64,000 nucleotides of DNA. Source: Chordicoccus furentiruminis. Its GTDB lineage: Bacteria; Bacillota; Clostridia; Lachnospirales; Lachnospiraceae. The stretch lies in assembly GCF_019355395.1 (NCBI RefSeq), contig NZ_CP048829.1:1763501-1827500 (forward strand), given 5' to 3'. The notes under the pieces were generated by a model. It made no database searches and was not told where the DNA came from. It saw nothing but the letters and a program-made list of their open reading frames with translations. Shown here one piece after another: positions 20,707 to 51,704 of this stretch. How positions within the stretch are numbered: the stretch's first letter is position 1; every line of letters begins with the position of its first letter. Both the position numbers and the translations under genes were made by a program.

Positions 20707-20794
20707 GAAATCCTCCTGTTTCTGCCTGATCGGGCGCCGATTTCCGCCTGCGCCCGACTTATTACTTATATAATGCTTCCGAAAAATCGATGTC

Positions 20795-23112: not shown

Positions 23113-23183
23113 CGGAGACGGGAGAGACGCGGAAAAAGAGAAGGCGGACGGCGGGAGAGCCGGACGCGGATCAGAAATCGCTG

Positions 23184-23227
23184 CGAGAACGGGGGCAGCC
23201 GGTTGGAACCGGCTGCCCCCGTTCTCG
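23184..23227. terminator. Long inverted repeat, probable bidirectional terminator
   Basis: A 20-21-bp perfect inverted repeat (arms 23184-23204 and 23207-23227). Only GTTCTCGT follows on the plus strand, with no real T run. It still lies where the zinc-ribbon transcript should end. Confidence 0.6.
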
Positions 23228-23557: not shown

Positions 23558-23587
23558 TTGCGGCCGGATGCCTCTCTGGTTTATGAT
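23558..23587 (+). promoter_or_regulatory. Candidate promoter of the ASKHA protein gene
   Basis: -35 TTGCGG (23558-23563), 18-nt spacer, -10 TATGAT (23582-23587), 25 nt before the start codon. Confidence 0.5.
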
Positions 23588-23611
23588 AGGGGGCAGTCAG
23601 GGAGGAACGAT

Positions 23612-25321
23612 ATGCAGGGAATCAGCCGGAAGATGGAACTTACGCTGACGCCGCCGTCGCCGGAGGACGCCCGCGACGAGGAAACGAGACTTTTGGAGGC
23701 GATCCGGGAGGCGTGGGACGGCGGGGACGCGGAGCCGGAAGAAATGGGAAACGGCGGGGAGGAGACGCCGATTCGTTTTCAGTATAAGGCTCTGCAGAGC
23801 CTCCACGGTGCGCTGGTCCGCGGAGAATGGCGCGTCACGGCGTCTCTTGCCTTCGACGGACTGGCATGGAACGTGGTCGGAGTCGAGCCGGGCCGGACGG
23901 CCGCGGCGCATTACGGCTGCGCGGTGGATCTCGGCAGCACGACGGTTGTGCTCGATCTGATGGACTGCGGGTCGGGGAAGCTGCTCGACGAGGAAAGCGG
24001 ATACAACCGCCAGATCCGGTTCGGCGAGGACATTCTGAGCCGGATTTTCTGCTGCAAGGATCAGCCGGAGCGGCTGAAGGAGATACAGGAGGAAACCTGC
24101 GCGACGATCCGGGAGCTGATGGACCGGGCGGCGGAGCAGACCGGAATCCGGCCGGAGGACTGCATCTCGATGGTGATCTCCGGCAACACGACGATGATCC
24201 ACTTCCTTCTGGGAATGGATCCCTTCGGCGTGTTTCACGAGCCCTACGCCGTGGCGGTGCTGGATCCCGGCTTCATTCCCGGCTCCGCGCTCGGTTTCCC
24301 GATCGCGGGGGAGGTCTACTGCGTCCCGGGACGGGCCAACTATCTCGGCGGCGATATCGTCAGCGGCATGATCGCGACAGAGATGTACCGGAGGACGGAT
24401 ATTTCGGTTTTCTTTGATATAGGGACAAACGGGGAACTGGCGGTCGGCGGCGCGCCGTTCCTTCTGTGCGGCGCCGGAGCAGCGGGACCCGCGCTGGAGG
24501 GCGGAAGCGTCAGCACCGGAATGCGGGCCGGAACCGGTGCCGTGGACCGGATCCGGATCGATGGAGATGCCTTTCATTATCATGTGATCGGCATGCCGGA
24601 GGGAGCGGAACGGGTCTTCGGCCCGGCCGAAGACCGTGCCGTCCGGGAAGAAGCGGCGGCGCCGGGCTGCGCATCGGCGCCGGACAGCCCGGCGGCCCGC
24701 GGCATCTGCGGATCCGGTCTGGTCGATCTCCTGTCGGCGCTTTTCCTTCATGGATGGGTCGATATCCAGGGATCTTTCCGGGAGGAACGGAGTCCGCTGA
24801 TCCGACGTGAGAGGCGGCCGGACGGCGGAGAGGAGACGGCGGTCCGGTACGCGCCGGGACTTGCCTTCTCCTCGCAGGATATCCGGGAACTGATCCGGAC
24901 GAAGGCGGCCGCGGCCACGATGATGGAATATATTCTGAATGAAGCCGGCATCGGGCTCGGCGACGTCAGCCGCTTCTATATGACCGGATCGTTCGGCACG
25001 CATGTGGACAAAGAGTCGGCGGTCAGCATCGGCATGTACCCGGATGTGCCGCGGGAGAGGATCATACTGGCCGGGAATACATCCCTTGAGGGAGCGCGGG
25101 AGATTCTTCTGAGAAAGAGCGCGCTCAAGGACGTCCGGACCGTGCTCGCGCTGATGGAGTATGTGCAGTTCGGCGCGGTGGCGAACTTTGTGGATCTGAT
25201 GCAGGCCGCGTCGGCGCTGCCCCACACGGATATGAGCCGTTACCCAAGCGTAGCGGAGAAGCTGAAGAGGATGCAGGATGAAGCTGTACGAAAAAAACAA
25301 GAACAAGAAGTGGATGAATAA
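23612..25321 (+). CDS. RACo-like ASKHA-domain (DUF4445) protein lacking the ferredoxin domain
   Basis: 569 residues. The family includes RACo and RamA, ATP-dependent reactivators that reduce the inactive Co(II) of corrinoid methyltransferases. Seen: linker-type start MELTLTPPSPEDARDEETRLLEAI; ATPase phosphate-1 loop YGCAVDLGSTTVVLDL (about 100-115); SMVISGNTTMIHFLLG; phosphate-2 FFDIGTNGELAVGG (about 270); and the C-terminal GSFGTHVDKESAVSIGMYPDVP. Typical members start with a [2Fe-2S] ferredoxin domain with CxxxxGxCGxC. None is present here, and none occurs in the upstream frame extension. The ATG at 23612 has GGGAGG 7 nt upstream. An insert (about 335-365) is Pro/Ala-rich. It overlaps the next gene by 44 nt. 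A role in corrinoid activation is inferred. Confidence 0.8.
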   Translation: MQGISRKMELTLTPPSPEDARDEETRLLEAIREAWDGGDAEPEEMGNGGEETPIRFQYKALQSLHGALVRGEWRVTASLAFDGLAWNVVGVEPGRTAAAHYGCAVDLGSTTVVLDLMDCGSGKLLDEESGYNRQIRFGEDILSRIFCCKDQPERLKEIQEETCATIRELMDRAAEQTGIRPEDCISMVISGNTTMIHFLLGMDPFGVFHEPYAVAVLDPGFIPGSALGFPIAGEVYCVPGRANYLGGDIVSGMIATEMYRRTDISVFFDIGTNGELAVGGAPFLLCGAGAAGPALEGGSVSTGMRAGTGAVDRIRIDGDAFHYHVIGMPEGAERVFGPAEDRAVREEAAAPGCASAPDSPAARGICGSGLVDLLSALFLHGWVDIQGSFREERSPLIRRERRPDGGEETAVRYAPGLAFSSQDIRELIRTKAAAATMMEYILNEAGIGLGDVSRFYMTGSFGTHVDKESAVSIGMYPDVPRERIILAGNTSLEGAREILLRKSALKDVRTVLALMEYVQFGAVANFVDLMQAASALPHTDMSRYPSVAEKLKRMQDEAVRKKQEQEVDE

Positions 25322-28181: not shown

Positions 28182-29066
28182 ATGAAGAGAGAAGAATTTG
28201 CCTCGCTTGCGGCGAAGGGCCGGGTGATCCTCGACGGCGCGACCGGAACGAATCTGATGAGGATGGGGATGCCGAAGGGTGTCTGCACGGAAGCGTGGGT
28301 GCTGGATCATCCGGACACGATCCTTTCGCTGCAGAGGGCCTATGCGGACGCGGGCAGCCAGATCGTGATCGCGCCCACCTTCGGCGCCAACCGGCATATG
28401 CTGGATCAATACGGACTTGGAGACCAGGTCATCCGGATGAACCGCGAGCTCGCCGCGCTGACACGGAAAGCCGTGGAGGGACGCGCGTTTGTGGCCGGGG
28501 ATATCGCACCGACGGGCCTCATCCTTGAGAGCGCCGGCGGGGAGGCGTCCATCGAGGACGTCTTCGAGGTCGTGAAGGAGCAGGCCGCGGCGCTCGCGGA
28601 CGCCGGTGCGGATCTGATCATGATCGAGACCGAGATGTCGGGCGACGAGGCGTCCATCGCGCTGGACGCGGCTCTTTCGGCAACGGATCTTCCGGTGACC
28701 TGCACGATGTCCGTGCAGGCGGACGGCCAGGCGTATTACGGAGGCAGCATCTTTGACGCCGCCGAGACGCTGGAGGCGATGGGGGCGTCGGCGGTCGGTG
28801 TCAACTGCGGCAACGGGCCGGATCAGCTGGAGAGCCTGATCCGGAAACTCCGGGGCATGGTGAGCATCCCGATCATCGCGAAGCCGAACGCGGGCCTCCC
28901 GACAATCGGGGCGGACGGTCAGGCTCATTATGATATGGGGCCGGACGCGTTCGCCGCGCACATGAAGTCGCTGGCCGCGGCGGGAGCCGGCGTGCTCGGC
29001 GGCTGCTGCGGGACAACGCCGGAGTACATTGCCAGAATGGTCCGGCGCCTTGAGGAGGCGGACTGA
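28182..29066 (+). CDS. Homocysteine S-methyltransferase family protein (MetH N-terminal domain type)
   Basis: A 294-residue single-domain TIM barrel that binds homocysteine through zinc. Start ILDGATGTNLMRMGMP; zinc ligands Cys 209 (GVNCGNGP) and Cys 275/276 (GGCCGTTPEYI). In this group the enzyme transfers a methyl group from methyl-corrinoid, folate or S-methyl donors to homocysteine. Here the domain stands alone, so a separate corrinoid protein and folate domain would be needed for a cobalamin route. The RACo-like gene 2.9 kb upstream and metY 5 kb downstream hint at methionine metabolism, but they are separate units. GGGAGAGAATGGG precedes the ATG. Confidence 0.88.
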   Translation: MKREEFASLAAKGRVILDGATGTNLMRMGMPKGVCTEAWVLDHPDTILSLQRAYADAGSQIVIAPTFGANRHMLDQYGLGDQVIRMNRELAALTRKAVEGRAFVAGDIAPTGLILESAGGEASIEDVFEVVKEQAAALADAGADLIMIETEMSGDEASIALDAALSATDLPVTCTMSVQADGQAYYGGSIFDAAETLEAMGASAVGVNCGNGPDQLESLIRKLRGMVSIPIIAKPNAGLPTIGADGQAHYDMGPDAFAAHMKSLAAAGAGVLGGCCGTTPEYIARMVRRLEEAD

Positions 29067-35964: not shown

Positions 35965-36420
35965 ATGTTCTTCTTCTGCTTACTCCTTTTCATCGTCCTG
36001 AACGGACGGGTGACGGCGGAGATCGTGCTGATCGGGATCGCAGTTGCGGCAGCAGTGACGGCGCTTGCGCATCGTCTCGCCGGATGGAAAAAGGAAGAAG
36101 AATGTTTCCTTATCCGGAATATTCCGCTCCTTTTTCTCTATGCGCTCGTCCTCATCCGGGAGATCATCATGGCTGCATTTGCCGTGATGCAGGTGGCGTT
36201 CAGCCGGAGGGCGCACCCGGAACCGGTCCTTGTGGAATTCCGGTCCGGATTTCCGTCGGAGATCCAGAACGTTCTGCTGGCCAATTCGATCACGCTGACG
36301 CCCGGGACCTATACGCTGAGAAAGGACGGGGACCATTTTGTGGTGCACTGCCTGAGGAGGGAATACGCGGACGGGATGGACAGTTCGGTCTTTGTCCGGA
36401 TCCTGAGGAAAATGCACTGA
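35965..36420 (+). CDS. mnhE: Na+/H+ antiporter subunit E (MrpE/MbhA-like)
   Basis: 151 residues with two or three N-terminal membrane helices (about 1-70) and a C-terminal soluble part. The MrpE pattern is clear: FIVLNGRVTAEIVLIGIAVAAAV, IPLLFLYALVLIREIIMAAFAVMQVAF, and VLLANSITLTPGTYTLRKDGDHFVVHCL. MrpE is needed for assembly of the multisubunit antiporter. The ATG at 35965 has GGAGG 9 nt upstream; upstream in-frame codons would precede the promoter. First gene of a ten-gene operon running to 45826. Confidence 0.92.
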   Translation: MFFFCLLLFIVLNGRVTAEIVLIGIAVAAAVTALAHRLAGWKKEEECFLIRNIPLLFLYALVLIREIIMAAFAVMQVAFSRRAHPEPVLVEFRSGFPSEIQNVLLANSITLTPGTYTLRKDGDHFVVHCLRREYADGMDSSVFVRILRKMH

Positions 36421-36536
36421 ACAATCAGATACGGAACGGGGATTCCTGCACAGATCTTACCGCATGAATCCCGGAACACACGCATATGTCCGGGGATGGA
36501 CACATACTGAAGGAATGCGGCAGGGAGGAGATGCCA

Positions 36537-36851
36537 ATGACAGTGTACGAGGCCTATCAGCTTCTATACAGCGCGGTTTTTCTTGCGCTGGTGCTGCTTG
36601 CCGGCTGTATGCTCATCCGCGCGATGATCGGACCGCGGATCACGGACCGGATCCTCTCGATCAATATGCTCGGGACGATGGTGATCTCCGGTATCGCGGT
36701 CCTCTCGAGGCTTCTGGATGAGTCCTATCTCGTCGACGTGGCCCTGATTTACGCGATGATCAGTTTTCTGGCCGTGATTATGCTGGCGGAAGTCTATATC
36801 CCGGCGGCACGGAGAAAAGGCGAAAAGCCTGGAGGAAAGCGCCATGGGTGA
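36537..36851 (+). CDS. mnhF: Antiporter subunit F (MrpF/MbhB-like)
   Basis: 104 residues with three membrane helices; the conserved stretch is RAMIGPRITDRILSINMLGTMVISGIAVLS. It is a core small subunit of Mrp antiporters and of the Na+ module of membrane-bound hydrogenases. The start at 36537 has GGGAGG 8 nt upstream; the ATG at 36531 is too close. Overlaps MrpG by 8 nt. Confidence 0.92.
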   Translation: MTVYEAYQLLYSAVFLALVLLAGCMLIRAMIGPRITDRILSINMLGTMVISGIAVLSRLLDESYLVDVALIYAMISFLAVIMLAEVYIPAARRKGEKPGGKRHG

Positions 36852-37227
36852 GTGGATCCGTTTCTGGATCACGGCGGTTCTTCTGACGATTTCCGTGGTC
36901 AGTTTTGCGGCGGCCGTGACCGGCGCGTGGCGGTTCGGCTTCGTCATGAACCGGATGCATGCGGCCGGGATCGGAGACACGCTCGGGCTTCTTGCGCTGA
37001 CGGTCGGCCTTGCGGTCTCCTCGGGGACGGCTATGGACGTGCTGAAAATCCTTCTTCTTGTGCTTTTCCAGTGGTTCTCATCGCCTGTTTCGACGCATGT
37101 GCTCGCCCAGGTCGAATTTGCGACGAACCCGGACCCGGCGTCGCATTTCGAGGACAGGACGAATGGCGGCGCTTTTTCGAGTGAAGATGAGGGAGAAAAG
37201 GAGGATCGTACGGATGGAACTGACTGA
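36844..37227 (+). CDS. mnhG: Antiporter subunit G (MrpG/MbhC-like)
   Basis: 127 residues with three membrane helices. Conserved G-subunit features: FAAAVTGAWRFGFVMNRMHAAGIGDTLG and a C-terminal SPVSTHVLAQ. The acidic tail (about 100-127, rich in D/E/G) is longer than usual. It overlaps both neighbours, F by 8 nt and the DUF4040 gene by 14 nt, showing tight coupling. Confidence 0.92.
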   Translation: MGEWIRFWITAVLLTISVVSFAAAVTGAWRFGFVMNRMHAAGIGDTLGLLALTVGLAVSSGTAMDVLKILLLVLFQWFSSPVSTHVLAQVEFATNPDPASHFEDRTNGGAFSSEDEGEKEDRTDGTD

Positions 37228-37477
37228 GGTAGCTCGGATCGCGCTCCTTGTTCTTCTGATTCTCTGCGCGGTCAGCGTCAATATCGTGAAGACGGACCTG
37301 CAGGCTGTGATCGTTTTTATGTCCTACAGCTCGATGATGTGTCTCATCTGGATTCTGATGGAATCGCCGGATCTTGCGATCACGGAAGCCGCGGTCGGCG
37401 CCGGCGTGAGCGGCATTCTTTTTCTCGTGACGCTCAAAAAAATCCGTGAGATGGACGGGGAGCAGAAGAAAGAATGA
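37214..37477 (+). CDS. DUF4040 / MbhD-like subunit
   Basis: 87 residues with three membrane helices: ALLVLLILCAVSVNIVK, AVIVFMSYSSMMCLIWILMESPDLAITEAAVGAGVSGILFLVTLKKI. The PDLAITEAAVGAG motif, with its Glu inside the membrane, is that of the MbhD/MrpA C-terminal module, part of the ion path. In Mrp antiporters this unit is fused to the large A subunit; here, as in archaeal Mbh, it is a separate gene. Overlaps the next gene by 4 nt. Confidence 0.85.
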   Translation: MELTEVARIALLVLLILCAVSVNIVKTDLQAVIVFMSYSSMMCLIWILMESPDLAITEAAVGAGVSGILFLVTLKKIREMDGEQKKE

Positions 37478-38430
37478 GCCGGGAAGAAAGAAAAGAAAAA
37501 TTCCTGCGCTGGCTCGACGGAGGAGTGGACCTGACGGATGCATTTCCCGATGAGGAACGTTTTCCTGACCCGCCGCGTGAGGAGCTGAAGCGAGAAGAAA
37601 AGACGGCGCACAGAGCGATTGTCGGCGAAAAGAAGGTCCGTGCGTTCATGAACCGCGAGAAACGCGGGTTCCGGACGCTTTACCGGGTCGTCGCCGTGGT
37701 CAGCTGCATTCTGCTGATCGGCGTACTTCTCTATCTTGTCGCCTCGCTTCCGATCAGCGGAGAGGAGAACCCGGAGACCCGGAAAGTGGTCGAGCGGTAT
37801 GTGAGATCCGGCGTCGAGGAGACGGGCGCGGTGAACATCGTCGCAGGCATGATCCTCGATTACCGCGCGTTTGATACGCTCGGGGAGTCGCATGTGCTGT
37901 TCACGGCCCTCGTCTGCGTGATGATCCTGCTGGCGGCCGATCAAAAGAATATGTCACCCGTAAGGGAAGATTATTATCTGATCCGGACGGAACGATATTA
38001 TGATCTGTCGGGTGATTCCATCGTGCGGACGGTCGGCAGCGTGCTTGTCCCCGCGATCTTCGTTTTCGGCGCATATGTCGTCCTGAACGGCCAGAACGGC
38101 CCGGGCGGCGGATTCTCCGGAGGTGCGGTCATGGGCGCGGCACTGATTCTTTCGTCTGCCGCTTTCGGCTTCGGCCGGATCGACCGGGTCTTCACCGCGA
38201 GGAAAATACAGTGGATCGCCTTCATCGCGCTTTCGTTTTACAGCTTTGCGAAGGGCTATGTATTCTTCATGGGCGCAAACGGGCTCGACAACCACATCCC
38301 GAAAGGGATACCCGGTGCGATCTTGAGCGGCGGTCTGATCCTGCCGCTCGACATCGCGGTCGGACTCGTTGTCTGCTGCACGATGTACGGCTTCTACAGT
38401 CTGTTCCGGCGGGGAAGGATCGGCGGCTGA
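37474..38430 (+). CDS. MbhE-MrpB fusion subunit
   Basis: 318 residues in two parts. After a charged cytoplasmic N-terminus (about 1-65), an MbhE-like unit (YRVVAVVSCILLIGVLLYLV...VNIVAGMILDYRAFDTLGESHVLFTALVCVMILL, about 67-155) is followed by a full MrpB/MbhF domain (GSVLVPAIFVFGAYVVLNGQNGPGGGFSGGAVMGAALIL, about 188-310). In bacteria MbhE is usually the end of MrpA, with MrpB separate; in archaeal Mbh they are two genes. Their direct fusion in the Mbh gene order is clear here. ATG overlaps the previous stop (ATGA). Confidence 0.85.
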   Translation: MSREERKEKFLRWLDGGVDLTDAFPDEERFPDPPREELKREEKTAHRAIVGEKKVRAFMNREKRGFRTLYRVVAVVSCILLIGVLLYLVASLPISGEENPETRKVVERYVRSGVEETGAVNIVAGMILDYRAFDTLGESHVLFTALVCVMILLAADQKNMSPVREDYYLIRTERYYDLSGDSIVRTVGSVLVPAIFVFGAYVVLNGQNGPGGGFSGGAVMGAALILSSAAFGFGRIDRVFTARKIQWIAFIALSFYSFAKGYVFFMGANGLDNHIPKGIPGAILSGGLILPLDIAVGLVVCCTMYGFYSLFRRGRIGG

Positions 38431-38556
38431 TGATGGAACCGTTTCATAAGAGGAATGTATCCGGTACATTTTTAGCTGAGGCCGAAATGCCAGAGACATC
38501 AAGGGGAAGGCATCGGGTGCATTTTTCTGAAGAAGTGAGAAGACGGAGGAATCGAT

Positions 38557-38937
38557 ATGCTGATGCATCTGGCGGAAAATTATGAGGAGGCTGCTGCGGT
38601 CATCCTCTTCGGCGTCGGGTTCATGACGCTGCTTTTCCAGAGAAACCTGATCAGGAAGCTGATCGGGATGAACATCATGGACACCGGCACGTTCCTTTTT
38701 CTCGCGTCTATGGGGTATATCCGGGGCAGGAAAGCGCCGATCGTCGTCGATCCGTCGGCCGGAGCGGATACCTATATCAATCCGGTCCCGGCAGGGCTTG
38801 TGCTGACCGGCATCGTCGTCTCGGTCTCGGTGACGGCGATCATGCTCGCGCTTACGGTCCGCCTCTACCGCCGGTACCATACGCTGAACCTCGATGATCT
38901 GTATCTTAAGTCGAAGCATCCTTCAGAAGGGCGCTGA
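38557..38937 (+). CDS. mnhC: Antiporter subunit C (MrpC/MbhG, NuoK-like)
   Basis: 126 residues with three membrane helices, homologous to NuoK of complex I. AAAVILFGVGFMTLLFQRNLIRKLIGMNIMDTGTFLFLASMG is the characteristic first half, and VLTGIVVSVSVTAIMLALTVRLYRRY the last helix. There are 126 nt between it and the MrpB-fusion gene, without a terminator. The next gene follows after 2 nt. Confidence 0.92.
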   Translation: MLMHLAENYEEAAAVILFGVGFMTLLFQRNLIRKLIGMNIMDTGTFLFLASMGYIRGRKAPIVVDPSAGADTYINPVPAGLVLTGIVVSVSVTAIMLALTVRLYRRYHTLNLDDLYLKSKHPSEGR

Positions 38938-38939
38938 CC

Positions 38940-40436
38940 ATGGACGCGGTGACGAATATACCTCTTTTTACGATCGTGCTCAGCCTCTTTTCAGGGGTGC
39001 TCTGCACGATGCTGCCGGCGCGCGCAGCCAGACGTTATACAGTTGTCTGGGAGTGTGCACTGATTGCGCTGACCGGTGCTGTCCTCCTTTATACGTTTGA
39101 GACCGGAGAGCCGTTCACGTACGTGATGGGCGAATTTCCGGCTCCCTGGGGCAACGAGATCCGGGCCGGCGTGCTCGAGGCGATGATGGCTTTTCTGTTC
39201 GCCTGTGTGATGCTTTGCTCGGTGCTCGGCGGCATGCATTTCATTCAGTATGACATCGATGAGAGCAAGATTCATCTCTATTACGCGCTGCTCAATCTGA
39301 TGACGGCATCTCTCATGGCGATGACCTGGACGAACGACCTCTTCACGGGCTATGTCTTTCTCGAGATTCTGACGCTGACAAGCTGCGGCATTCTGATCGT
39401 CCGGGAGATCGGCCGGACGACACTCGCCGCTGTCCGGTACATGATCCTCAATCTGCTCGGGTCAGGTCTTTTCCTGCTGGGCGTTGTGCTTCTCTACGAC
39501 ATCACGGGCAATCTTCTGATGGTGCCGATGCAGGAGGAGATCGCGCGCCTTGCGCAGGATCCGGCCACCATGAGGTCGCTGACGCTTTCCACCGGCATTC
39601 TGACGGTCGGACTTGCGATCAAGAGCGGCCTTTTCCCATTTCACTACTGGATGCCGGACACATACGGGCGCGCGACGCCGACGTCGGGCGCGGTGCTCAG
39701 CTCCATGGTCTCCAAGTGCTACATTTTCCTTCTGATCAAGATCTTTTACCGCGTGATCGGGGCGGATGTCTTTGCGAGGATGCCGGTCCGGAATATCCTG
39801 TTTGTCCTCGGACTTCTCGCGATGGTATTCGGGTCGGTCTCGGCTTTAAGGGCCGCCAACATCAACCGGATGGTCGCCTTCTCCTCTGCGGCGCAGATCG
39901 GCTATATCTTCGTCGGGATCGGAATCGGCGGAACGGCGGGGTATACGGCCGCCATTTTCCAGATCTTTGCCCATGCCGTGACGAAGTCGATGCTGTTCCT
40001 CACGACGCCGCGCCTGGCCGCGGTGTCCGGCGGAAGTCTCCGTTTCCGGGACCTGCAGGGGGCAGGCATGAGGGATAAGAGCGCCGGGATGTATTTCTCG
40101 ATAGGTGCGATGTCGATGCTCGGGATCCCGGTCTTTGCCGGTTTTGTCTCAAAGCTCCTTCTGGGAGCGGCGGCTGTCACGTCCGGAAGCATGGCGAAGA
40201 TGGTGCTCGTGATGCTGGCGATCGCGCTCAGTTCGATGCTGAACGCGCTGTATTTCATCCGGACGATGATCCGTCTCTATGGCGAGTCCGACCGTGCGAA
40301 AGAGGCCGGTCCGGTCCGCCATGGCGCGGCGTATCACCTGCCGATGCTGTTTCTTGCCGCCGGCAATCTGGTCCTCGGGCTTTCGTCCGCGCCGGTGGCC
40401 GCACTCATACGGAAAGGGCTTTCGATGCTCGGATGA
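38940..40436 (+). CDS. mnhD: Proton-conducting antiporter subunit 1 (MrpD/MbhH, NuoN/M-like)
   Basis: 498 residues with about 14 membrane helices. Conserved Glu in VFLEILTLTSCG (helix 5) and Lys in GLAIKSGLFPFHYWMPDTYGRATPTSGAVLSSMVSKCYIF, the family signature. It is the first of four NuoL/M/N-type antiporter-like subunits in this operon. By position directly after MrpC it matches MrpD/MbhH. It probably carries H+ or Na+ across the membrane. Confidence 0.93.
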   Translation: MDAVTNIPLFTIVLSLFSGVLCTMLPARAARRYTVVWECALIALTGAVLLYTFETGEPFTYVMGEFPAPWGNEIRAGVLEAMMAFLFACVMLCSVLGGMHFIQYDIDESKIHLYYALLNLMTASLMAMTWTNDLFTGYVFLEILTLTSCGILIVREIGRTTLAAVRYMILNLLGSGLFLLGVVLLYDITGNLLMVPMQEEIARLAQDPATMRSLTLSTGILTVGLAIKSGLFPFHYWMPDTYGRATPTSGAVLSSMVSKCYIFLLIKIFYRVIGADVFARMPVRNILFVLGLLAMVFGSVSALRAANINRMVAFSSAAQIGYIFVGIGIGGTAGYTAAIFQIFAHAVTKSMLFLTTPRLAAVSGGSLRFRDLQGAGMRDKSAGMYFSIGAMSMLGIPVFAGFVSKLLLGAAAVTSGSMAKMVLVMLAIALSSMLNALYFIRTMIRLYGESDRAKEAGPVRHGAAYHLPMLFLAAGNLVLGLSSAPVAALIRKGLSMLG

Positions 40437-40523
40437 GGTGGTCCCGGATGATGGGAAATGCACCCGGGAGCGGTAAGGAAATGGAACATCATCCCGCTCT
40501 GCGTGGGAAGGAGGAGAGATAAG

Positions 40524-42104
40524 ATGCTGCTCATGCTGACGATACTGGTACCGGCGGTGGCTGGAACGCTGATTTCCGCCTGCTTTCATGAAGACAGGGC
40601 ACGCCGCCGCTGGTACACAGCTCTCATTGTCCTGACTGATCTGCTCGGAGTCCTGACGATTGTGCAGGGCGGGCGGATCACGCCGCTTGTCTTTGCGCCC
40701 GGCGCGGAGATGACCTTTTCGATGGATGCGCTTGGACGGTACGTGATGGCGGCCGTCCTTCTCCTCTACACCTCTTCCGGTGTCTATGCCTTCAAATATA
40801 TGGAGAAAGAGGAGCGGACGCAGGTCTTCTTCGCGTTCTACTTCATCTCGTTCGGGGCGCTTCTGTCGGTCACGATGGCCGGTAATCTCGTGACGCTCTA
40901 TTTCTGCTTCGAGATGGCGACGCTCTCGACGGTCCCGCTCGTCCTTCATGAGCTGACGAAGGAAGCGGTCGCCGCCGGACTCAAGTACCTTTTCTATTCG
41001 ATCGGCGGCGCGCTGATGGGCCTTTTTGCGGTCTTTATCGTCTGCACGAATACGAACGGCTCGAATGACTTCGTGATGGGCGGCTTTCTGGATCCGGCTC
41101 TGGCAGCGGACCACCGGGAACTGCTTCTTGCCGCTGTGATGGTCGGCATCGTCGGGTTCGGGACCAAGGCCGGGCTCTATCCGATGCACGGATGGCTGCC
41201 GGCCGCGCACCCGATTGCGCCGGCGCCGGCCTCAGCACTGCTCTCCGGCATCGTCGCCAAAGCCGGCGTGGTCGCGGTGATCCGGCTCGTCTATTATTCC
41301 GTCGGAACGGATTTCCTCTGCGGGACATGGGTCCAGACAGTCTGGATGGTACTCGCACTTCTCACGATCTTCATGGGTTCCATGATGGCGTTCCGCGAGA
41401 AAAACATGAAGAAACGGCTGGCTTATTCGACCGTCAGCCAGATCTCGTATATTCTGCTCGGGCTTTCCTTCTTATCGGCAGATGGTCTGAAAGGCGGGCT
41501 GCTTCACCTGATGGCCCACGCGGCGTCGAAAGGCTGCCTCTTCCTTGCAGCCGGCGTCTTCATCTTCCAGCTCGGGATCCGGGACGTGGCCGGCCTTAAA
41601 GGGATCGGGAAAAAGATGCCCGTCACGATGATCTGCTTCACGATGGCTTCGCTTTCGCTGGTCGGCATCCCGCCGATGGGCGGCTTCTTAAGCAAGTGGG
41701 TGATCGCGACAGCCTCTCTTGAGTCCGGGATCAAAGGCTTTTCCGTGGCGGCACCGGTGATGCTGCTGATCTCGGCCCTGCTCACAGCCGGCTATCTCCT
41801 GACAGTGGCAGTGGATGCGTTCTTCCCGGTCCGGACGGAGATCCTTTCTTCGGGGCGGAACATGCAGGTGAAAGCCTCCGGCATCCCCAAAAGGGAGACA
41901 AAACGGAACGAGAAGGCAGCGGCCGGAAAAGATGAACCGGTGCAGGCTTCCGTTTCCGGGGGAGACGGTGCGGCACCCACGCAGGAGGCCGTGGCGTCTG
42001 CCGAGCCTTCGCCGCTCATGGTCTGGCCGATGGTGGCGCTTAGCATTGCTGCCCTGATCATGGGTATCTGGGGTGAATCAGTACTGGGGCTTTTCGGGCT
42101 TTGA
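40524..42104 (+). CDS. Proton-conducting antiporter subunit 2 (MrpD-like) with hydrophilic loop
   Basis: 526 residues and about 14 membrane helices. FEMATLSTVPLVLHELTKEA holds the helix-5 Glu; GFGTKAGLYPMHGWLPAAHPIAPAPASALLSGIVAKAG holds the key Lys. Unlike its neighbours it has a charged loop of about 60 residues before the last helix (RTEILSSGRNMQVKASGIPKRETKR..., about 453-510). Start at 40524 behind GGAGGAGA. It partially resembles HyfB/NuoM-type subunits. No counterpart is expected in a simple Mrp operon. Confidence 0.9.
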   Translation: MLLMLTILVPAVAGTLISACFHEDRARRRWYTALIVLTDLLGVLTIVQGGRITPLVFAPGAEMTFSMDALGRYVMAAVLLLYTSSGVYAFKYMEKEERTQVFFAFYFISFGALLSVTMAGNLVTLYFCFEMATLSTVPLVLHELTKEAVAAGLKYLFYSIGGALMGLFAVFIVCTNTNGSNDFVMGGFLDPALAADHRELLLAAVMVGIVGFGTKAGLYPMHGWLPAAHPIAPAPASALLSGIVAKAGVVAVIRLVYYSVGTDFLCGTWVQTVWMVLALLTIFMGSMMAFREKNMKKRLAYSTVSQISYILLGLSFLSADGLKGGLLHLMAHAASKGCLFLAAGVFIFQLGIRDVAGLKGIGKKMPVTMICFTMASLSLVGIPPMGGFLSKWVIATASLESGIKGFSVAAPVMLLISALLTAGYLLTVAVDAFFPVRTEILSSGRNMQVKASGIPKRETKRNEKAAAGKDEPVQASVSGGDGAAPTQEAVASAEPSPLMVWPMVALSIAALIMGIWGESVLGLFGL

Positions 42105-42117
42105 CGGAGGGAAGATG

Positions 42118-43623
42118 ATGAGCGCTTACTGGATTCTTCTTCCGGTCCTTCTGCCGCTTATTGGCGGCTGCCTGATCCTGTTTCACGGCGTCAGAAAGGA
42201 GAGAGCGGTCTGTCTTGCGGCGGAAGTGACGGCCATTGCCACGTCGTTGGCGGTCTGGATCGGCCTTCTGTCCGGCATTCGGGGCTCTTTCACGGTTTAC
42301 CGTTTCGCGAGAGGCTTCTCCGTCACTTTTGCAGTCGACGGGATGGCATCTCTTTTTGCCGGGATGGTCTCGGTGATGTGGCCGCTCGTGCTTCTCTACG
42401 CGTTCTCCTATATGCGCGGCGGGAGGCGGCTGAGTCTTTTTTACGGCTTTTACGTGATGACGTACGGCATCACGCTGGGAATCGCTTTTTCCGCGAATAT
42501 CACGACGCTCTATGTCTTCTATGAGATGCTCTCTTTGGTGACGATCCCGCTTGTCTCGTACTACGGGGACCATGACGGGATGTACGCCGGACGGGTGTAT
42601 GCGGCTTTCACGATCGGCGGCGCGTCGCTGACGTTCTTTGCCGTCGTGGCGGCGTCTCTCACGCCGGGGGCGGGGCAGTTCCTCTACGGCGGGTCCCTTG
42701 CAGGCGGAACGGCTCTTCCGGCCGGCCTTTCCGTATCGAAGGAGACAGGACGCATCATCTGGCAGGCTGCATTTCTGTTCGGATTCTTCGGTTTCGGGAC
42801 AAAGGCAGCCGTTTTTCCGCTCACGTACTGGCTTCCCACAGCGTCCGTCGCGCCGACACCGGTCACGGCTCTTCTCCATGCGGTCGCGGTCGTGAACGCC
42901 GGCGCTTTTGCCGTGATGCGGCTGACCTGGTATGTGTTCGGGCCCGACATCCTGAAAGGTTCCTGGGTTCAGGCGGTCTGCCTTGCAGCTGCCATCGTCA
43001 CACTCGTCGGCGCGGCCGCGATGGCCCTCCGCGAGTGGAAACTGAAGAGGCGGCTTGCGTATTCCACGGCCAGCAATCTTTCGTACATGCTGTACGGCTG
43101 CATGCTTCTCACGCCGGCGGGATTTGCCGGGGGACTGGCCCATATGCTGTTCCACGGTGTCATCAAGATGACGCTGTTTCTGTGCGCGGGGGCGTTTCTG
43201 CACCAGAGCGGCCGGTCCCATATCTGGGAGATCGACGGCGTCGGGCGGAAGATGCCGGTCACGTTCTTCTGCTTCACGGTCGGGGCGCTGTCCCTGACCG
43301 GCATCCCGCTGTTCTGCGGTTTCGTCTCGAAGTGGCAGCTTCTGACGGCCGGCGTCCGCGCCGGCACGCCTCTTGCGGTCGCCGGCGCCGCCGGTCTCAT
43401 CGTGGCAGCTTTCCTGTGCGCGATGTATACGCTGACCATCAGCGTCCGCGCGTTCTTTCCGATGAAAGGACGGGACCGGTACGCGGACGGGTCCGAGGTC
43501 CGTGAGGCGGACGGGCTTATGCTGACGCCGATCCTTGTCTTCACGGTCGTGAATCTTGTGCTGGGGTTCTGCTCGGGGCCGGTCATGAAGCTGGTTTCTT
43601 CCATCGCGGAAGGGGCGCTCTGA
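42118..43623 (+). CDS. Proton-conducting antiporter subunit 3 (MrpD-like)
   Basis: 501 residues and about 14 membrane helices. FYEMLSLVTIPLVSYYGDH and GFGTKAAVFPLTYWLPTASVAPTPVTALLHAVAVVNAG carry the conserved Glu and Lys. The start at 42118 has GGAGG (42106-42110) 7 nt upstream; the ATG at 42115 is only 4 nt away, and a frame extension to 42073 would overlap the preceding gene. 13 nt separate it from subunit 2. Confidence 0.9.
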   Translation: MSAYWILLPVLLPLIGGCLILFHGVRKERAVCLAAEVTAIATSLAVWIGLLSGIRGSFTVYRFARGFSVTFAVDGMASLFAGMVSVMWPLVLLYAFSYMRGGRRLSLFYGFYVMTYGITLGIAFSANITTLYVFYEMLSLVTIPLVSYYGDHDGMYAGRVYAAFTIGGASLTFFAVVAASLTPGAGQFLYGGSLAGGTALPAGLSVSKETGRIIWQAAFLFGFFGFGTKAAVFPLTYWLPTASVAPTPVTALLHAVAVVNAGAFAVMRLTWYVFGPDILKGSWVQAVCLAAAIVTLVGAAAMALREWKLKRRLAYSTASNLSYMLYGCMLLTPAGFAGGLAHMLFHGVIKMTLFLCAGAFLHQSGRSHIWEIDGVGRKMPVTFFCFTVGALSLTGIPLFCGFVSKWQLLTAGVRAGTPLAVAGAAGLIVAAFLCAMYTLTISVRAFFPMKGRDRYADGSEVREADGLMLTPILVFTVVNLVLGFCSGPVMKLVSSIAEGAL

Positions 43624-43720
43624 AGAAACGGAGCAGGCCGCGTATGCCGGCTGATGTTCTTTCGAAGCGACAGGAGTGCCGGGCCCATCGCGGCCGGCAT
43701 GATCATCGGGAGGATGCTTT

Positions 43721-45826
43721 ATGCTGATTGCTGCAATCGTGTTTCTTCCTTTTGCGGGGGCTGCGGCCGCAGCGGCCTTTGGCCGCCGGTCCGGCCGCGC
43801 GCGGGATATTTCTGCCTGTGCGCTCACGGCGCTCATTCTGTTTCTTTCGCTTTTCCTTCCGGCTGCCGGAACGTCACTTGTGATTCCGGACGTCTTCGCA
43901 TCCGGCCTGCATTTCTCATCAGACGGGTTCCGAAATGTCTGGGCGATCGTGAGCGCGGTCATGTGGTTCGGGACGACACTTTTTTCGCAGGAATATTTCG
44001 CGGAAGATGAGGAGGAGATGAACGGGTACTGGTTCTTCGTCCTTGCGACGCTCGGGGCGACCGAAGGCGTCATGCTGTCCGCGGATTTCATGACGACGTT
44101 CGTCTTCTTCGAGATCCTCTCGTTCACATCGTTCACCTGGGTCATGCACGACCGGACGACCCAGTCGGTCCGGGCCGGCTATACGTATCTTTTCATCGCG
44201 ATCATCGGCGGGCTTGTCCTTTTCATGGGCCTTCTGCTTCTCCAGAATGCAGGGATTCCGCTGTCGTTTGTACTGTTCGGAGATGGGCTTGCAGCCCGCG
44301 GAGTCCGTGCACCGTCAGGGGCGCTTCTGGCGGCCGGATGCTGCATTCTCTTCGGATTCGGCTGCAAGGCCGGTATGGTCCCGGTCCACGTCTGGCTCCC
44401 GAAAGCGCACCCGGTTGCGCCATCTCCGGCGTCGGCGCTTCTCTCCGGGATTCTGACCAAAGTCGGCGTCTACGGCATCCTGATGGCGGCCGTCTGCGTG
44501 CTGCCCGGATACGCACCGTTCGGCTGGCTGATTCTCCTTCTGGGGACGGCGACGATGGTACTCGGAGCGGTGCTCGCGATTTTCTCGGTCAATCTGAAGC
44601 GGACGCTTGCATGCTCATCGATGTCCCAGATCGGCTTCATCCTGACGGGCGTCGGCATGTATGTGCTGCTACAGTCGGAGGGCAGCCCGGAGGCATCCGC
44701 TCTCGCGCTCCCGGGCCTGCTTCTTCATATGCTCAACCACTCGATGATCAAGCTGACGCTCTTTCTGGCGGCCGGCGTCGCGGCGATGCGCGAGCATACA
44801 CTGACCCTGGACGATCTCCGGGGATTCGGGAGGAAAAAGAGGGCGCTTGCGGTTTCGTTCGCGCTCGGAGCACTGGGCATCAGCGGTGTTCCGCTGTTCG
44901 GGGGGTATCTGAGCAAGACACTTCTTCATGAGAGCATCGTGGCGGGAGCGGAGACGATGGCGTCCTTCGCGCCGCTCCTTCGGACGATTGAAGTGTTCTT
45001 TCTCGTGAGCGGCGGCTGCACGTTTGCGTATATGCTGAAGCTTTTTATCTGCCTTTTTATCGAGAAAAATGCATCCGCCGATCGCCAGGCCCGTTACGAC
45101 GCCGATCCGCGCGGCATGAGCCGTCTGAGCACGGCGGTTGTCTTTGGTTCTGCGTGCACGATGGTGGTGCTCGGCGTCCCGCAGACTGTGTTTTATCTGG
45201 CGTCTTATATGACCGGAGATGCCTCGATATTGAATTTTAAGCCTTTCTCTTTCGGGAACCTGAAGGGTAGCCTGATTTCGCTCGCGATCGGAGCGTCGAT
45301 TTATCTTCTGATCGTCAGGCGGAAGACGGTGAGGGACGGGCATTATGTCAATTACTGGCCGGCCGGATGGGACCTCGAGGAGCGGGTATACCGTCCGATG
45401 TTTACCCGCTGGCTGCCCGGTGTGTTGGGACCGGTTGCGGCTCTCTTCGGAGAGAACCGGCTGCTCCGGCCGACTGCTGTCGCCGTCCGCGGGGCATCCG
45501 GCTCCGTTGCGGCCCTTTTCGGTGAAAACCGCTTCCTCAGGCCGCTTGCGCGTTTCACGGTTTTTCTCTCGTCCGTCTTCGGACGCGTTGCTTCGGACAG
45601 CCTGGACGCCCTGATCATTCTGCTCCGGAAGAGCGTTCTGCGGGCACGGCGCGTGAAGAACCCGCTCCGTCGCGCCGGCCGCCTGCGGGCGGCCCGGGAG
45701 GCGACGGAGGAGACAATTCGTCCGTTGACGGAGAATTTCTCGTTTGCCCTCATGATGACCTGCATCGGGATTCTGCTGATCCTCGGGACGCTTGTGGTGC
45801 TTCTGGCGTTCGGGGCTCTTTCCTGA
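43721..45826 (+). CDS. Proton-conducting antiporter subunit 4 (MrpA/NuoL-like)
   Basis: 701 residues, the largest of the four. The NuoL/MrpA-type core has FFEILSFTSFTWVMHDRTTQS (helix-5 Glu) and GFGCKAGMVPVHVWLPKAHPVAPSPASALLSGILTKVG. A C-terminal section of about 200 residues (from about 500) has a long amphipathic or basic stretch (RRKTVRDGHYVNYW...RLRAAREATEETI) before the last membrane helix. This recalls the lateral helix of NuoL/MrpA. The MbhD/MbhE modules that normally end MrpA are separate genes upstream. GGGAGG about 11 nt upstream of the ATG. No terminator is apparent downstream. Confidence 0.9.
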   Translation: MLIAAIVFLPFAGAAAAAAFGRRSGRARDISACALTALILFLSLFLPAAGTSLVIPDVFASGLHFSSDGFRNVWAIVSAVMWFGTTLFSQEYFAEDEEEMNGYWFFVLATLGATEGVMLSADFMTTFVFFEILSFTSFTWVMHDRTTQSVRAGYTYLFIAIIGGLVLFMGLLLLQNAGIPLSFVLFGDGLAARGVRAPSGALLAAGCCILFGFGCKAGMVPVHVWLPKAHPVAPSPASALLSGILTKVGVYGILMAAVCVLPGYAPFGWLILLLGTATMVLGAVLAIFSVNLKRTLACSSMSQIGFILTGVGMYVLLQSEGSPEASALALPGLLLHMLNHSMIKLTLFLAAGVAAMREHTLTLDDLRGFGRKKRALAVSFALGALGISGVPLFGGYLSKTLLHESIVAGAETMASFAPLLRTIEVFFLVSGGCTFAYMLKLFICLFIEKNASADRQARYDADPRGMSRLSTAVVFGSACTMVVLGVPQTVFYLASYMTGDASILNFKPFSFGNLKGSLISLAIGASIYLLIVRRKTVRDGHYVNYWPAGWDLEERVYRPMFTRWLPGVLGPVAALFGENRLLRPTAVAVRGASGSVAALFGENRFLRPLARFTVFLSSVFGRVASDSLDALIILLRKSVLRARRVKNPLRRAGRLRAAREATEETIRPLTENFSFALMMTCIGILLILGTLVVLLAFGALS

Positions 45827-48550: not shown

Positions 48551-48594
48551 AGTATATTGCAAATAGTGCGATTTATCAATCAAAATAGTGCGAT
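48551..48594 (-). promoter_or_regulatory. Toxin-antitoxin promoter with repeat operator
   Basis: Minus strand: -35 TTGATA (48574-48579), 17 nt, -10 TATACT (48551-48556). Two direct repeats AAATAGTGCGAT (48561-48572 in the spacer; 48583-48594 upstream of the -35) are 22 bp apart, two helical turns. This is a typical autoregulatory arrangement. Confidence 0.75.
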
Positions 48595-48782
48595 ATCGAT
48601 TATCAAGGTGGTACTCAAGGCAGCCATGCGGATCCTTCCTGTTTGCATGGAAAGCGGCACCCTTCATTCCCGACAACATAAAACCTTCAATCTTTTTTTT
48701 CTCCGGCAACAAATCTTCTTCACAATCCGCTTTTATCGTCAGACGAAAGATCAAGACGGGTTGTATGTCCGGAGGAAAAGCC

Positions 48783-51704
48783 ATGGCAGAAAAGCGCAGA
48801 TCAAAGGTACGGAAAGTCATCACACTTCTTGTAACGGCATCACTTGTCGCCGGAGGCGGCTATGTCGGCTATCAGAAGTACACCGAGACAAAGGCGGCGG
48901 AACCATCGGGCCAGTCCGATACGGAGTCGACATCGGCTCCTGTCGTGAAGACGGCCCAGGCGACAAAGGGAACGATCGCCTCAACGGTGGTCGGATCCGG
49001 GACGCTTTCGGACGGCGATTCGGAGAACGTCACGATTCCGACCGGTATCACGATCGATCAGGTGCTGGTTGAGAACGGTGATACTGTCAAGAAGGGTGAC
49101 GCGCTTGCGACCGTCGATCAGACATCGCTTGCAAGTGAGATCTCTTCCCTCACGGATTCGATCAGCTCGATCGACGAAGAGCTCGAGGACCTTGAGGATG
49201 AGGACGATGACGAGACGGTGACGACCGTGGTGAGCGGCCGTGTCAAAGATCTTCAGATTGCCTCAGGCGACGATGCCGCGACCCTCATGGAGAAAAACGG
49301 CTCGCTCCTCACGATCTCGGTGGACGGTCTCATGGCCGTCGATCTTGAAAATGCATCCGGCATCTCGAAGGGTGATACTGTAAAAGTGATGCTTTCCGAC
49401 GGCACGGAAGAAAACGGAACGGTCGCATCCGTCACGGGAACCACCGCGACGGTGACGATTTCGGACGATGGCCCGACGGTCGGGGATGAAGTCACGGTGA
49501 CGACAGCGGACGGAACAAAGGTCGGGACCGGAACGCTCTATGTACATCAGCCGCTCGCCGTGACGGAGACGGATGGGACCGTCGGAACGGTCTATGTGAG
49601 CGAAAACGAAGAAGTGGACGCGGGCGACAGCCTGTTCACGCTGACCGACATCACGGACTCGGCGGACAAGGATAAGCTGCTCGCCGAGCGCGAGAATCTG
49701 ACGGATGAGTTGAACACTCTCCTCAAACTGAAGGAGACGGTCGAGATCACGGCGACCTGCGACGGGACCGTGGATGAAGTCAACGTCTCGGACGGGACGG
49801 AGGTGACGGCTTCCGCATCAGGGTCTTCTTCCTCATCCGGCAGCACGTCCGCGACGGGGACGACTGCTTCGAAGACTTCTTATTCTTCAACGTCCGGCAG
49901 CACGTCCGCGACGGCCACGAAGACATCTTCTTCCTCCGGATCAACGGCCTCAAGGACAACCTCGTCTTCCACAAGCAGCCTGAAAGCTTCCACACTCGCC
50001 TCTTCTGCGGGCAGCGGCCTGAAGGCTTCAGCCCTTTCCTCCTCCGCCAGCGGTTCGGGCGGCTTCACGCCAGCCGTCTTCCGTCTCGTCTCGGATACAG
50101 CGGCGTCAGCATCAGAAGAAACCACGGATACTTCGGGAAATGCAGCCGGCACCGGGGACGCGGCGGCAGAGGATGCGACGACAGCCACGACGGACACCAC
50201 AGCAGCGGCAGAGGATACGACGACGGCCACTGCAACAGCGGATACGACGACCACAACAGACACAACGGCGACAACGGATACCACGACCACAGCGGATACC
50301 GGCACGACGAACGATACGACCGCAGCCGATCAGAATAATGCCTCTTCTTCCACCACGACGCAGGAAACCGCTATCGATGCCGTCAGCGTGACCTACACGG
50401 CGGACACGGACGGGACCATCGCATTCACGGCAGATAACGTGCCGGCGGTGACAGTCACGTCCTCAAACTGCACGATCCCGGCGTTCACCTGGACGGAGAC
50501 GGACCAGACGAACGCGAAAGTATACACAACGACGTTCAATCTGACGGCCGCTGACGGATTCTACTTCAGCGGAAAAAACGTCACATTTGAGGACAGCAGC
50601 GAGTGGACCTGGACATGGAAGACATCGGATGACGCAAAGACGATGGCGATCTCCATCACGGTCACGGTCCCGACAGGAACGGACGCCACGCAGAGTACCT
50701 CGACGACTTCAAACGGAAACGCGGCCGGTACAGAAAGTCAGCCAGCCGGGACAGACAGCGGGACGAACGGTTCGACGCAGTCGGGAACAGCCGGGACGGA
50801 CAGCGGAACGGCCCAGTCCGTCAGTGAGCAGAACGGGACAGGCAATGCGCAGAGCGGAACGGACAGCAGCGCGGCTGGAGCATCCGGCAGCACTGGAAGC
50901 GGCAGCAGTGCGATGGGCGGATCCGCCTCGTCCGGCGGCATGAGTGCGTCCGGCGGATCATCGGGCGGCTCTTCCGGCACATCCGCCGGAGGCAGCACCG
51001 GTTCTTCATCCGGAACAGCCACTTCGACGGAGACAGCTGCATCTTCTTCTTCCCAGACTTCCGACAGCGATGAGACGGTCGGCTTCACCGTGACGACCGA
51101 CGACTATATGGAAGTCTCCATCAGTGTCGACGAACTGGATATTCTTTCCATCAAAGAGGGACAGGATGTCTCCGTCGCGCTTGACGCCATCGACGGCAAG
51201 ACGTTCGAAGGAACCGTGAAAGAAGTCAGCACGAGTGGCACGAACAGCGGCGGCTCCTCGAAATTCACCGTGACGGTTGAGGTGCCGAAGGACTCGGATA
51301 TGCTCGCGGGCATGAGCGCGACGGCGACGATCACGACATCCTCCTCAGAGGATACGCTGACGATTCCGGCGGCAGCCGTTCATCAGAAGGGCGGCAAGAG
51401 CTATGTCTACACGTCGGAGGATGAGGACGGCAATCTGTCCGGTGAGACCGAGATCGAGACGGGAATGTCTACAGACAGCACGATCGAGGTGACATCGGGC
51501 CTCACGGAAGGCGAGACCGTCTATTACACGGAGCTGAGCGGAAGCACAATCAGCTCTTCAACGGATTCCAACTCCCAGCAGATGATGGGTGGCATGCCTT
51601 CCGGTGACATGGGCGGCGGAGGCGGTATGCCGTCCGGCGGCGGAAATGGCGGCGGCAACGGCGGAGGCGGTATGCCATCCGGCGGCGGTCAGGGAAGAAA
51701 CTGA
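48783..51704 (+). CDS. Periplasmic-adaptor-like (HlyD/MacA) subunit with giant low-complexity linker
   Basis: 973 residues, about twice the normal adaptor size. Signal-anchor helix about 10-27. Biotinyl-lipoyl-like half motifs ITIDQVLVENGDTVKKGDALATVD (about 80-105) and GTVGTVYVSENEEVDAGDSLFTLTD (about 260-290). Residues about 345-528 and 635-760 are Ser/Thr/Gly/Ala-rich low complexity, enclosing a beta-rich block (about 530-634, VSVTYTADTDGTIAFTADN...). The C-terminal part (about 763-930) resumes adaptor beta-barrel type (MEVSISVDELDILSIKEGQDVSVALDAIDGKTFEGTVKEV, IPAAAVHQKGGKSYVY). Ends in a Gly/Met/Pro-rich tail. GGAGGAAAAGCC precedes the ATG. Operon with the ABC genes downstream; presumably links export to the cell wall zone. 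Confidence 0.82.
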   Translation: MAEKRRSKVRKVITLLVTASLVAGGGYVGYQKYTETKAAEPSGQSDTESTSAPVVKTAQATKGTIASTVVGSGTLSDGDSENVTIPTGITIDQVLVENGDTVKKGDALATVDQTSLASEISSLTDSISSIDEELEDLEDEDDDETVTTVVSGRVKDLQIASGDDAATLMEKNGSLLTISVDGLMAVDLENASGISKGDTVKVMLSDGTEENGTVASVTGTTATVTISDDGPTVGDEVTVTTADGTKVGTGTLYVHQPLAVTETDGTVGTVYVSENEEVDAGDSLFTLTDITDSADKDKLLAERENLTDELNTLLKLKETVEITATCDGTVDEVNVSDGTEVTASASGSSSSSGSTSATGTTASKTSYSSTSGSTSATATKTSSSSGSTASRTTSSSTSSLKASTLASSAGSGLKASALSSSASGSGGFTPAVFRLVSDTAASASEETTDTSGNAAGTGDAAAEDATTATTDTTAAAEDTTTATATADTTTTTDTTATTDTTTTADTGTTNDTTAADQNNASSSTTTQETAIDAVSVTYTADTDGTIAFTADNVPAVTVTSSNCTIPAFTWTETDQTNAKVYTTTFNLTAADGFYFSGKNVTFEDSSEWTWTWKTSDDAKTMAISITVTVPTGTDATQSTSTTSNGNAAGTESQPAGTDSGTNGSTQSGTAGTDSGTAQSVSEQNGTGNAQSGTDSSAAGASGSTGSGSSAMGGSASSGGMSASGGSSGGSSGTSAGGSTGSSSGTATSTETAASSSSQTSDSDETVGFTVTTDDYMEVSISVDELDILSIKEGQDVSVALDAIDGKTFEGTVKEVSTSGTNSGGSSKFTVTVEVPKDSDMLAGMSATATITTSSSEDTLTIPAAAVHQKGGKSYVYTSEDEDGNLSGETEIETGMSTDSTIEVTSGLTEGETVYYTELSGSTISSSTDSNSQQMMGGMPSGDMGGGGGMPSGGGNGGGNGGGGMPSGGGQGRN

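Follow-up and report, generated by a model that had tools for sequence, protein, structure and literature searches.

Gene content of the operon

The window analysed here, a 64,000-nucleotide stretch of the Chordicoccus furentiruminis genome (contig NZ_CP048829.1, forward-strand positions 1,763,501 to 1,827,500; positions below count from its first letter), carries a ten-gene operon for a putative Mrp-type Na+/H+ antiporter with four antiporter-like subunits (APLS). All ten open reading frames (ORFs) lie on the + strand between 35965 and 45826, with gaps of 2-126 bases or overlaps of at most 32 between adjacent genes. Their Pfam matches run in the order MNHE, MrpF_PhaF, PhaG_MnhG, MbhD, MbhE fused with MnhB, Oxidored_q2 (MrpC) and four Proton_antipo_M proteins of 498, 548, 516 and 701 residues, which we call D1, D2, D3 and L. 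Every one of the ten scored above its Pfam gathering cut-off, and ORFs and Pfam matches together confirm the ten genes in the Mbh-type order that a preliminary description, made from the letters of this DNA, had set out. None of the ten reached an NCBIfam cut-off among the matches listed (for the four large proteins, the best 25 of 69-75), and the operon proteins therefore appear distant from the curated Mrp subfamilies.

The small genes are mrpE (MNHE; 35965..36420, 151 residues; PF01899, E=6e-25), mrpF (36486..36851, 121 residues, with a real start that may lie further in; PF04066, E=6e-12), mrpG (36844..37227, 127 residues; PF03334, E=1.6e-16), mbhD (37214..37477; PF13244, E=3.6e-18), the mbhE-mrpB fusion (37474..38430, 318 residues; PF20501 and PF04039) and mrpC (38557..38937, 126 residues; PF00420), the best solved relative of which is 6u8y_G (E=4.6e-22). 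For mbhD, ATG 37187 or ATG 37214 (87 residues from the latter) is more likely the start than TTG 37058; alignments of relatives to the long frame begin between residues 31 and 44. MbhD Glu58 aligns with the Glu of the TEAA/AEAAVGAG stretch in 6u8y_D and 6cfw_D, and MrpC Asp42 with the Asp/Glu of 6cfw_G and 6u8y_G.

The large genes follow in the order D1 (38940..40436, 498 residues; PF00361), which Pfam and tree mark as a proximal MrpD/MbhH-like APLS, D2 (40458..42104, a 548-residue ORF) and D3 (42073..43623, a 516-residue ORF), which Pfam and the trees mark as first and second copies of a duplicated middle APLS, and L (43721..45826, 701 residues), a terminal NuoL/HyfB/MrpA-N-like APLS with transmembrane helix (TM) 15, a long linker and TM16. 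Residue 23 of the 548-residue D2 protein is where most relatives begin to align, which puts its start probably near 40524, later than in the listed ORF; likewise D3 probably starts near 42115, because its relatives align from residue 15-16 (31 in one case) of the 516-residue protein. By sequence, the best solved relative of D1 is 6u8y_H and that of D2, D3 and L is MbhH (6cfw_H); 6u8y we take to be MBS, the membrane-bound sulfane reductase.

Origin of the fourth subunit

By its place in the trees, the fourth APLS is the product of a tandem duplication of the middle APLS. Support values are SH-aLRT from a quick search on a set with long branches, and all those given here are starred unless stated otherwise. 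In a 68-row tree (11 of 79 rows, namely fragments, an overlapping frame and near-copies, were left out), D2 and D3 form sister clades (97) within a clade that includes the middle APLS of three-APLS operons (100). D1 shares a clade with its Peptoclostridium counterpart, the first APLS there (99), and a wider one that also takes in the first APLS of Haloarcula and Rhodospirillales as well as E. coli NuoN (95); L is joined by the third Peptoclostridium APLS (100). For the middle subunits, a 90-row tree recovers a D2 clade (100) and a D3 clade (99) joined at 99, alongside the middle subunits that stand single in Peptoclostridium and locus L097 (93, not starred); it omits proteins under 380 residues and uses the last 560 residues of those over 620 and the first 520 of two references.

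Two arrangements were tried and rejected: the second middle subunits of all four-APLS operons as one group (p 2e-9), and one clade for all middle subunits of four-APLS operons, L131, which is nested in the D2 clade, included (p 6.9e-8); both p-values are weakened by the groups having been named after the tree was seen. On the same trees, loci L115, L122 and L119-L121 are cases in which a second middle subunit was acquired separately from that of the window's type. L131 has three APLS, the middle one being of the D2 type, which suggests a later loss.

An AlphaFold2 model of L has a good core (mean pLDDT 80.8, pTM 0.80), and Foldseek finds MrpA chains as its best matches (TMq 0.70, with a large rmsd). 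A clade of L with MrpA was not rejected (p 0.367). L is thus closest to MbhH by sequence and to MrpA by fold, and may share its exact origin with either.

Distribution

The four-APLS form occurs widely among the window's relatives, both in its genus and in its family. Of the genus genomes, 33 of 42 match L at E ≤1e-45 (41 at a loose limit, which takes in other NuoL-like proteins), and 18 of the 20 loci fetched have D1-D2-D3-L, the other two, L045 and L048, being cut by contig ends. The family sample takes roughly one genome per genus (298 genera); in it, 64 of 299 genomes have a D3 match at E ≤1e-50, 58 of them with two matches, as D2 plus D3 predict. Nineteen of 20 family loci fetched have four APLS, E, F and G genes going undetected at L093, and L096, picked as a single-match case, has three. 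At the level of the order, 71 of 392 genomes match, 66 with two matches. The 40 phylum loci, a non-random sample chosen from 80 positives outside the window's genome, divide into 27 with three APLS, eight with four (including L118, with no small genes in the stretch), four with five or more and one with two at a contig end; small genes are rearranged in some, for example L098 and L136. Three APLS behind the same small-gene order are found on plasmids of Peptoclostridium acidaminophilum and Haloarcula marina, on Rhodospirillales contigs and in many phylum genomes.

Larger clusters were also seen. L132, L133, L134 and L135 (genomes G1038, G880, G904 and G1018) hold Mrp clusters in which the large antiporter-like genes number 5 to 8; D3-D2-D2-L cassettes are among them, and the terminal subunits reach 794 residues. 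Several family genomes (G338, G184 and G330 among them) gave D3-type matches with one in-frame stop within the aligned part, which may reflect alignment beyond the end of the gene.

Ion-path residues

The residues of the main ion path are conserved in all four subunits. Forty four-APLS operons other than the window's supply 160 APLS: every one has the TM5 Glu and the TM7 Lys, and 159 have the TM12 Lys (the remaining one is a gap). The window's four agree. Column labels follow E. coli Nuo residue numbering. The charged membrane residues whose absence from some of the large subunits would, by the preliminary description, have spoken against its reading are thus present at TM5, TM7 and TM12 in all four. 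TM8 Lys is found in 40/40 each of D1, D2 and L; at this column D3 is evenly split, Lys in 20 operons and Asn in the other 20.

D2 and D3 also differ at one histidine. D3 His269 aligns with His248 of Bacillus MrpA (7qru_A), and D2 has Ser there with the TM8 Lys kept. According to PMC9568556, MrpA His248 has been proposed to bridge proton paths, with a bearing on stoichiometry. Among proteins of known type, E. coli NuoL and Microvirga MrpA carry this MrpA-type His, whereas NuoM, NuoN and MrpD do not. Exactly one APLS per locus has it in 46/46 loci with four large genes, in 38/40 with three and in the five-gene locus L133. The scoring skipped genes under 330 residues; the 46 include L121 with three scored genes and L118, and the 40 include the incomplete L015, L045 and L048. 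The carrier is D3 in 40/40 window-type four-APLS operons (D2 in 0/40), and the first middle subunit in 5/5 operons of separate origin. L132 and L135 have two His subunits each, as expected if each codes for two complexes. Nine loci have one or two large genes or, in L007, broken-up ones; six of them carry one His, and L012, L014 and L056 carry none.

Lateral-helix region of L

The row of APLS is braced, in Mrp as in complex I, by the helix HL that its terminal subunit carries between TM15 and TM16 (PMC7419157). Two further papers report related changes in enlarged complexes: the 2M complex I has a lengthened NuoL (PMC6606698), and in Ca. Manganitrophaceae an HL insertion of 26 residues was explained by the extra subunits (PMC9040806). 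The corresponding region of the window's L spans residues 533-671 (45317..45733, + strand), or 139 residues by alignment, against 82 in E. coli NuoL when measured alike. Between TM15 and TM16, three-APLS operons have a median of 78 residues (range 72-171, n=13), window-type four-APLS operons one of 123 (89-187, n=40, window included) and four operons of separate origin one of 194 (140-227); L133, with five APLS, measures 130, not above four-APLS operons. The survey covers L-type proteins of at least 600 residues with scores >200, so that the third subunits of many three-APLS operons, with 555-613 residues and low L-profile scores (L002-L011, L054, L096, L099-L106, L108-L114), fall outside it; L048, on a contig without the upstream genes, was dropped from the three-APLS group, and L117 and L122, with an L under 600 residues at a contig end, were left aside.

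Within the genus, the linkers are mostly 116-117 residues long, with 139-141 in the window, L031, L047 and L050 and in the family member L095. The difference is a 24-residue repeat around FGEN[RK], a diverged unit (VAALFGENRxLRP; window 45425-45568) found in one or two copies across genus members. Tandem Repeats Finder found no DNA tandem repeat beneath it, and the two 72-base units share 39/72 bases, which points to an old duplication or to convergence.

Comparison with known systems

The operon fits a stand-alone group 3 Mrp (CPA3) Na+/H+ antiporter by its genes, and not a hydrogenase stripped of its redox part. It combines homologues of MrpB, C, D, E, F and G (D via the general family PF00361), has MrpD-like genes and no full-length MrpA, and holds the TM5 Glu and TM7 Lys typical of Mrp APLS in all four large subunits. 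The large, NuoB-like and NuoH-like subunits of the membrane-bound hydrogenase (MBH), of MBS or of other energy-converting hydrogenases are absent genome-wide by the family searches given below, and by the same searches the NuoB/D/H plus NuoL, M, N set of complex I or 2M complex I is likewise not present. Two features of 2M-type expansion are found, namely an extra APLS gained through duplication and a longer lateral-helix region on the terminal subunit.

What defines group 3 is that mrpA is missing and mrpD present, in some cases more than once (Haja and Adams; PMC8415708), and the same paper gives a stand-alone mrpEFGBB'CD in P. furiosus. That system resembles the window's operon in its order E-F-G-B-B'-C-D and in lacking a full-length MrpA, the C-terminal domain of MrpA being in separate pieces and MrpD-like genes being present in group 3 as here; it differs in having one mrpD against four APLS with a lateral-helix region on the last. 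The group 3 operon mrpCD1D2EFGAB of Aphanothece (PMC5703873) has two mrpD. The text of PMC7784846 gives 'Ca. Nitrospira alkalitolerans' a group 3 Mrp with mrpD followed by two NuoM/NuoL-like genes, mrpD plus two against the window's four APLS. The two plasmid operons are also alike in layout: that of Peptoclostridium acidaminophilum (L053) has the same small-gene order and D1-, middle- and L-type APLS, but one middle APLS instead of two and an L lateral-helix region of 101 instead of 139 residues, and that of Haloarcula marina (L054) has the same small-gene order with D1- and middle-type APLS and again one middle subunit. P. furiosus MBH and MBS have equivalents of MbhA-H in the order seen here; unlike them, the window has no hydrogenase or sulfane reductase subunits, and four APLS where MBH has one and MBS two. 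Parallels are also seen in complex I: the 2M form of Nitrospira (PMC6606698) combines an additional APLS with a longer NuoL, and the five-APLS form of Ca. Manganitrophaceae (PMC9040806) an added APLS with a lateral-helix insertion; both are redox-driven, unlike the window's operon, which has no redox module and has Mrp small subunits.

The preliminary description had supposed that extra channels take the place of the hydrogenase part of an Mbh. This is not supported, as three-APLS stand-alone operons of the same order are common, P. furiosus has its own stand-alone mrpEFGBB'CD (PMC8415708) and the fourth APLS is by the trees a duplicate of the middle one. The four-APLS form is a variation within the known group 3 Mrp with several mrpD. 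Whether the order is already an established common subtype has a divided answer: the gene set is common in the family and group 3 operons with several mrpD have been described, but a description of a four-APLS Mrp, or of its spread in the family, was not found in a literature search that most subscription papers lay outside. The linker trend and the one-His regularity were likewise not met in searches that were aimed at neither and that left subscription papers mostly outside.

Ion pumps and neighbouring genes

The genome is a single contig of 3,267,205 bases (98% complete), and PF00361 has exactly four matches in it, all inside the operon. Zero matches were found in the genome for PF00346 (49 kDa/large hydrogenase subunit), PF00146 (NuoH) and PF01058 (NuoB), each positive in 11/14 control genomes, for PF02508 (Rnf/Nqr) and PF03030 (membrane pyrophosphatase), each positive in 4/14, and for PF00119 (F-type ATPase a), positive in 9/14. 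The absence of a redox module noted in the preliminary description thus extends to the whole genome as far as PF00346, PF00146, PF01058 and PF02508 tell, and the orphan genes that its docking to a redox module elsewhere would call for were not found with these four families. In an all-against-all comparison of 42 loci, none of the 12 flanking-ORF clusters listed, judged by eye within the fetched stretches, looked redox-like; the most recurrent cluster (9 loci) looked NUDIX-like by eye. Two other genus members have an Ech-like arrangement, a NuoL-like gene (636-640 residues) followed by NuoH (L137:3651-7546 and L138:2634-5529); L137 also has NuoB-like and ferredoxin-like genes by eye, and no large catalytic subunit was noticed in the stretch.

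Among the families searched, the primary ion pumps are the V-ATPase, with V-type A, B, C/AC39, I and c-type genes at 12630-21000 on the - strand of the window, A, B, C and I lying at 12.6-20.4 kb, and a Na+-pumping decarboxylase (one genome match to the beta-subunit family PF03977). For the c-type subunit (16778-17227, - strand), V-type ATP synthase K chains are the best matches, and there is a weak one to the sodium ATPase K chain 2bl2_A; no Gln was seen in the helix preceding its loop, a lack that may speak against Na+ binding.

No RNA switch was found upstream by an Rfam gathering scan of the window, which gave a tRNA only. Elsewhere in the window lie a gene for an HlyD-like membrane-fusion protein of 1038 residues with a long Ser/Thr/Gly-rich stretch (48588-51704), a RACo-type (corrinoid protein activator) gene (23042-25321) and, 3 kb on, a homocysteine S-methyltransferase gene (28182-29066).

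Discussion

By analogy, the operon is best read as encoding an electrogenic antiporter that stands to Mrp as the '2M' form stands to complex I. It is likely that its products form one membrane complex, a stand-alone group 3 Mrp antiporter in which tandem duplication of the middle proton-channel subunit has raised the number of such subunits from three to four; we further infer an array order, four working paths, a stoichiometry and a direction. The array would follow gene order, with the Na+ module E/F/G/B together with MbhD/E and C, then D1, D2 and D3, and L at the far end, where its lateral helix would brace the row. Driven by the membrane potential, H+ would enter through the APLS and Na+ would be expelled through the small-subunit module, the reverse also being possible. 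If each APLS passed one H+ per cycle, as Steiner and Sazanov have proposed for a two-APLS Mrp, the ratio would move towards 4 H+ per Na+, so that this antiporter may move more H+ per Na+. An extension of the APLS mechanism to three or four subunits is mentioned in PMC7419157, and PMC9568556 calls the stoichiometry of Mrp unmeasured.

The same gene content could serve an ordinary Mrp for Na+ tolerance or pH homeostasis, in which the additional APLS is structural and the H+/Na+ ratio unchanged. This is compatible with the gene-level part of our reading, it has a precedent in the stand-alone group 3 Mrp of P. furiosus, which acts in pH homeostasis with Na+ as coupling ion (PMC8415708), and the unmeasured stoichiometry also leaves room for it; however, the conservation of the main ion-path residues in all four subunits across 40 operons goes beyond a purely structural need, and we regard it as unlikely. 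Two alternative antiporters that share the small subunits, for example D1 and L with either D2 or D3, would make the duplication a means of tuning the response to an ion or to pH. D2 and D3 differ at the His and at the TM8 Lys, as specialised copies might, and the three-APLS locus L131 retains a D2-type middle subunit alone. Against this stand the paired matches in 58 of the 64 positive family genomes, the longer lateral-helix region of L where there are four APLS, including operons in which the second middle subunit was acquired separately, and the fact that a D1+D2+L set would have zero His subunits, unlike nearly all sets, which together make the idea improbable. A redox-driven Mbh/Mbs-like pump, with an electron-transfer module encoded elsewhere that docks on the APLS row, appears very improbable. 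The operon's gene order matches Mbh, MbhH is the best solved relative of L, D2 and D3, L is nearest HyfB in NCBIfam (far under the cut-off) and two other genus members have a NuoL-like gene followed by NuoH (Pfam), one with a NuoB-like gene by eye as well, but the window's one-contig genome has no member of the NuoD/large-subunit, NuoH or NuoB families and none of the 12 flanking clusters at 42 loci looks redox-like by eye.

Several observations weigh against a four-channel complex with a lengthened brace. The rank tests on linker length (p 5e-5 and 0.004) treat related sequences as independent and so overstate the evidence; linkers are long despite three APLS in L130 (171), L097 (124), L053 (101) and L131 (99), and short, at 89-98 residues, despite four in L042, L081 and L091. 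The lateral-helix region of the L model has 10-residue confidence means of 35-66, which is low, so that the model is no test of the bracing idea. In D3, the TM8 column is Asn in all 18 genus loci (Asn275 in the window), and the position of the MbhG His ligand is a Phe in the window's MrpC. L130 and L131, with three APLS, lack an MrpA-type His altogether, and L134, with seven large genes, has one His subunit, that is, in one of two apparent sets. We advance only tentatively the broader possibility, rated lower because of the L134 exception, that Mrp complexes are rows of three, four or perhaps five channels, with a lateral helix lengthened to span them and, with few exceptions, one His-gated subunit, that the four-channel form arose at least twice, and that the window's lineage has the four-channel form with a raised H+/Na+ ratio.

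For complex I and its relatives, whether H+/ion stoichiometry scales with the number of APLS has yet to be settled. A four-APLS complex free of redox subunits, together with its three-APLS relatives, would allow the scaling to be tested by antiport measurements, and the one-His regularity hints at which subunit may gate. If the four-channel antiporter works as proposed, then together with the V-ATPase and the Na+-decarboxylase it could set the balance of the Na+ and H+ gradients at low proton motive force: a cell with a weak proton motive force could hold a steep Na+ gradient, and the Na+ gradient made by the decarboxylase pump could be converted into proton motive force. Across a large family of Bacillota-type bacteria, in which the system is common, it may be a principal connection between the Na+ and H+ gradients.

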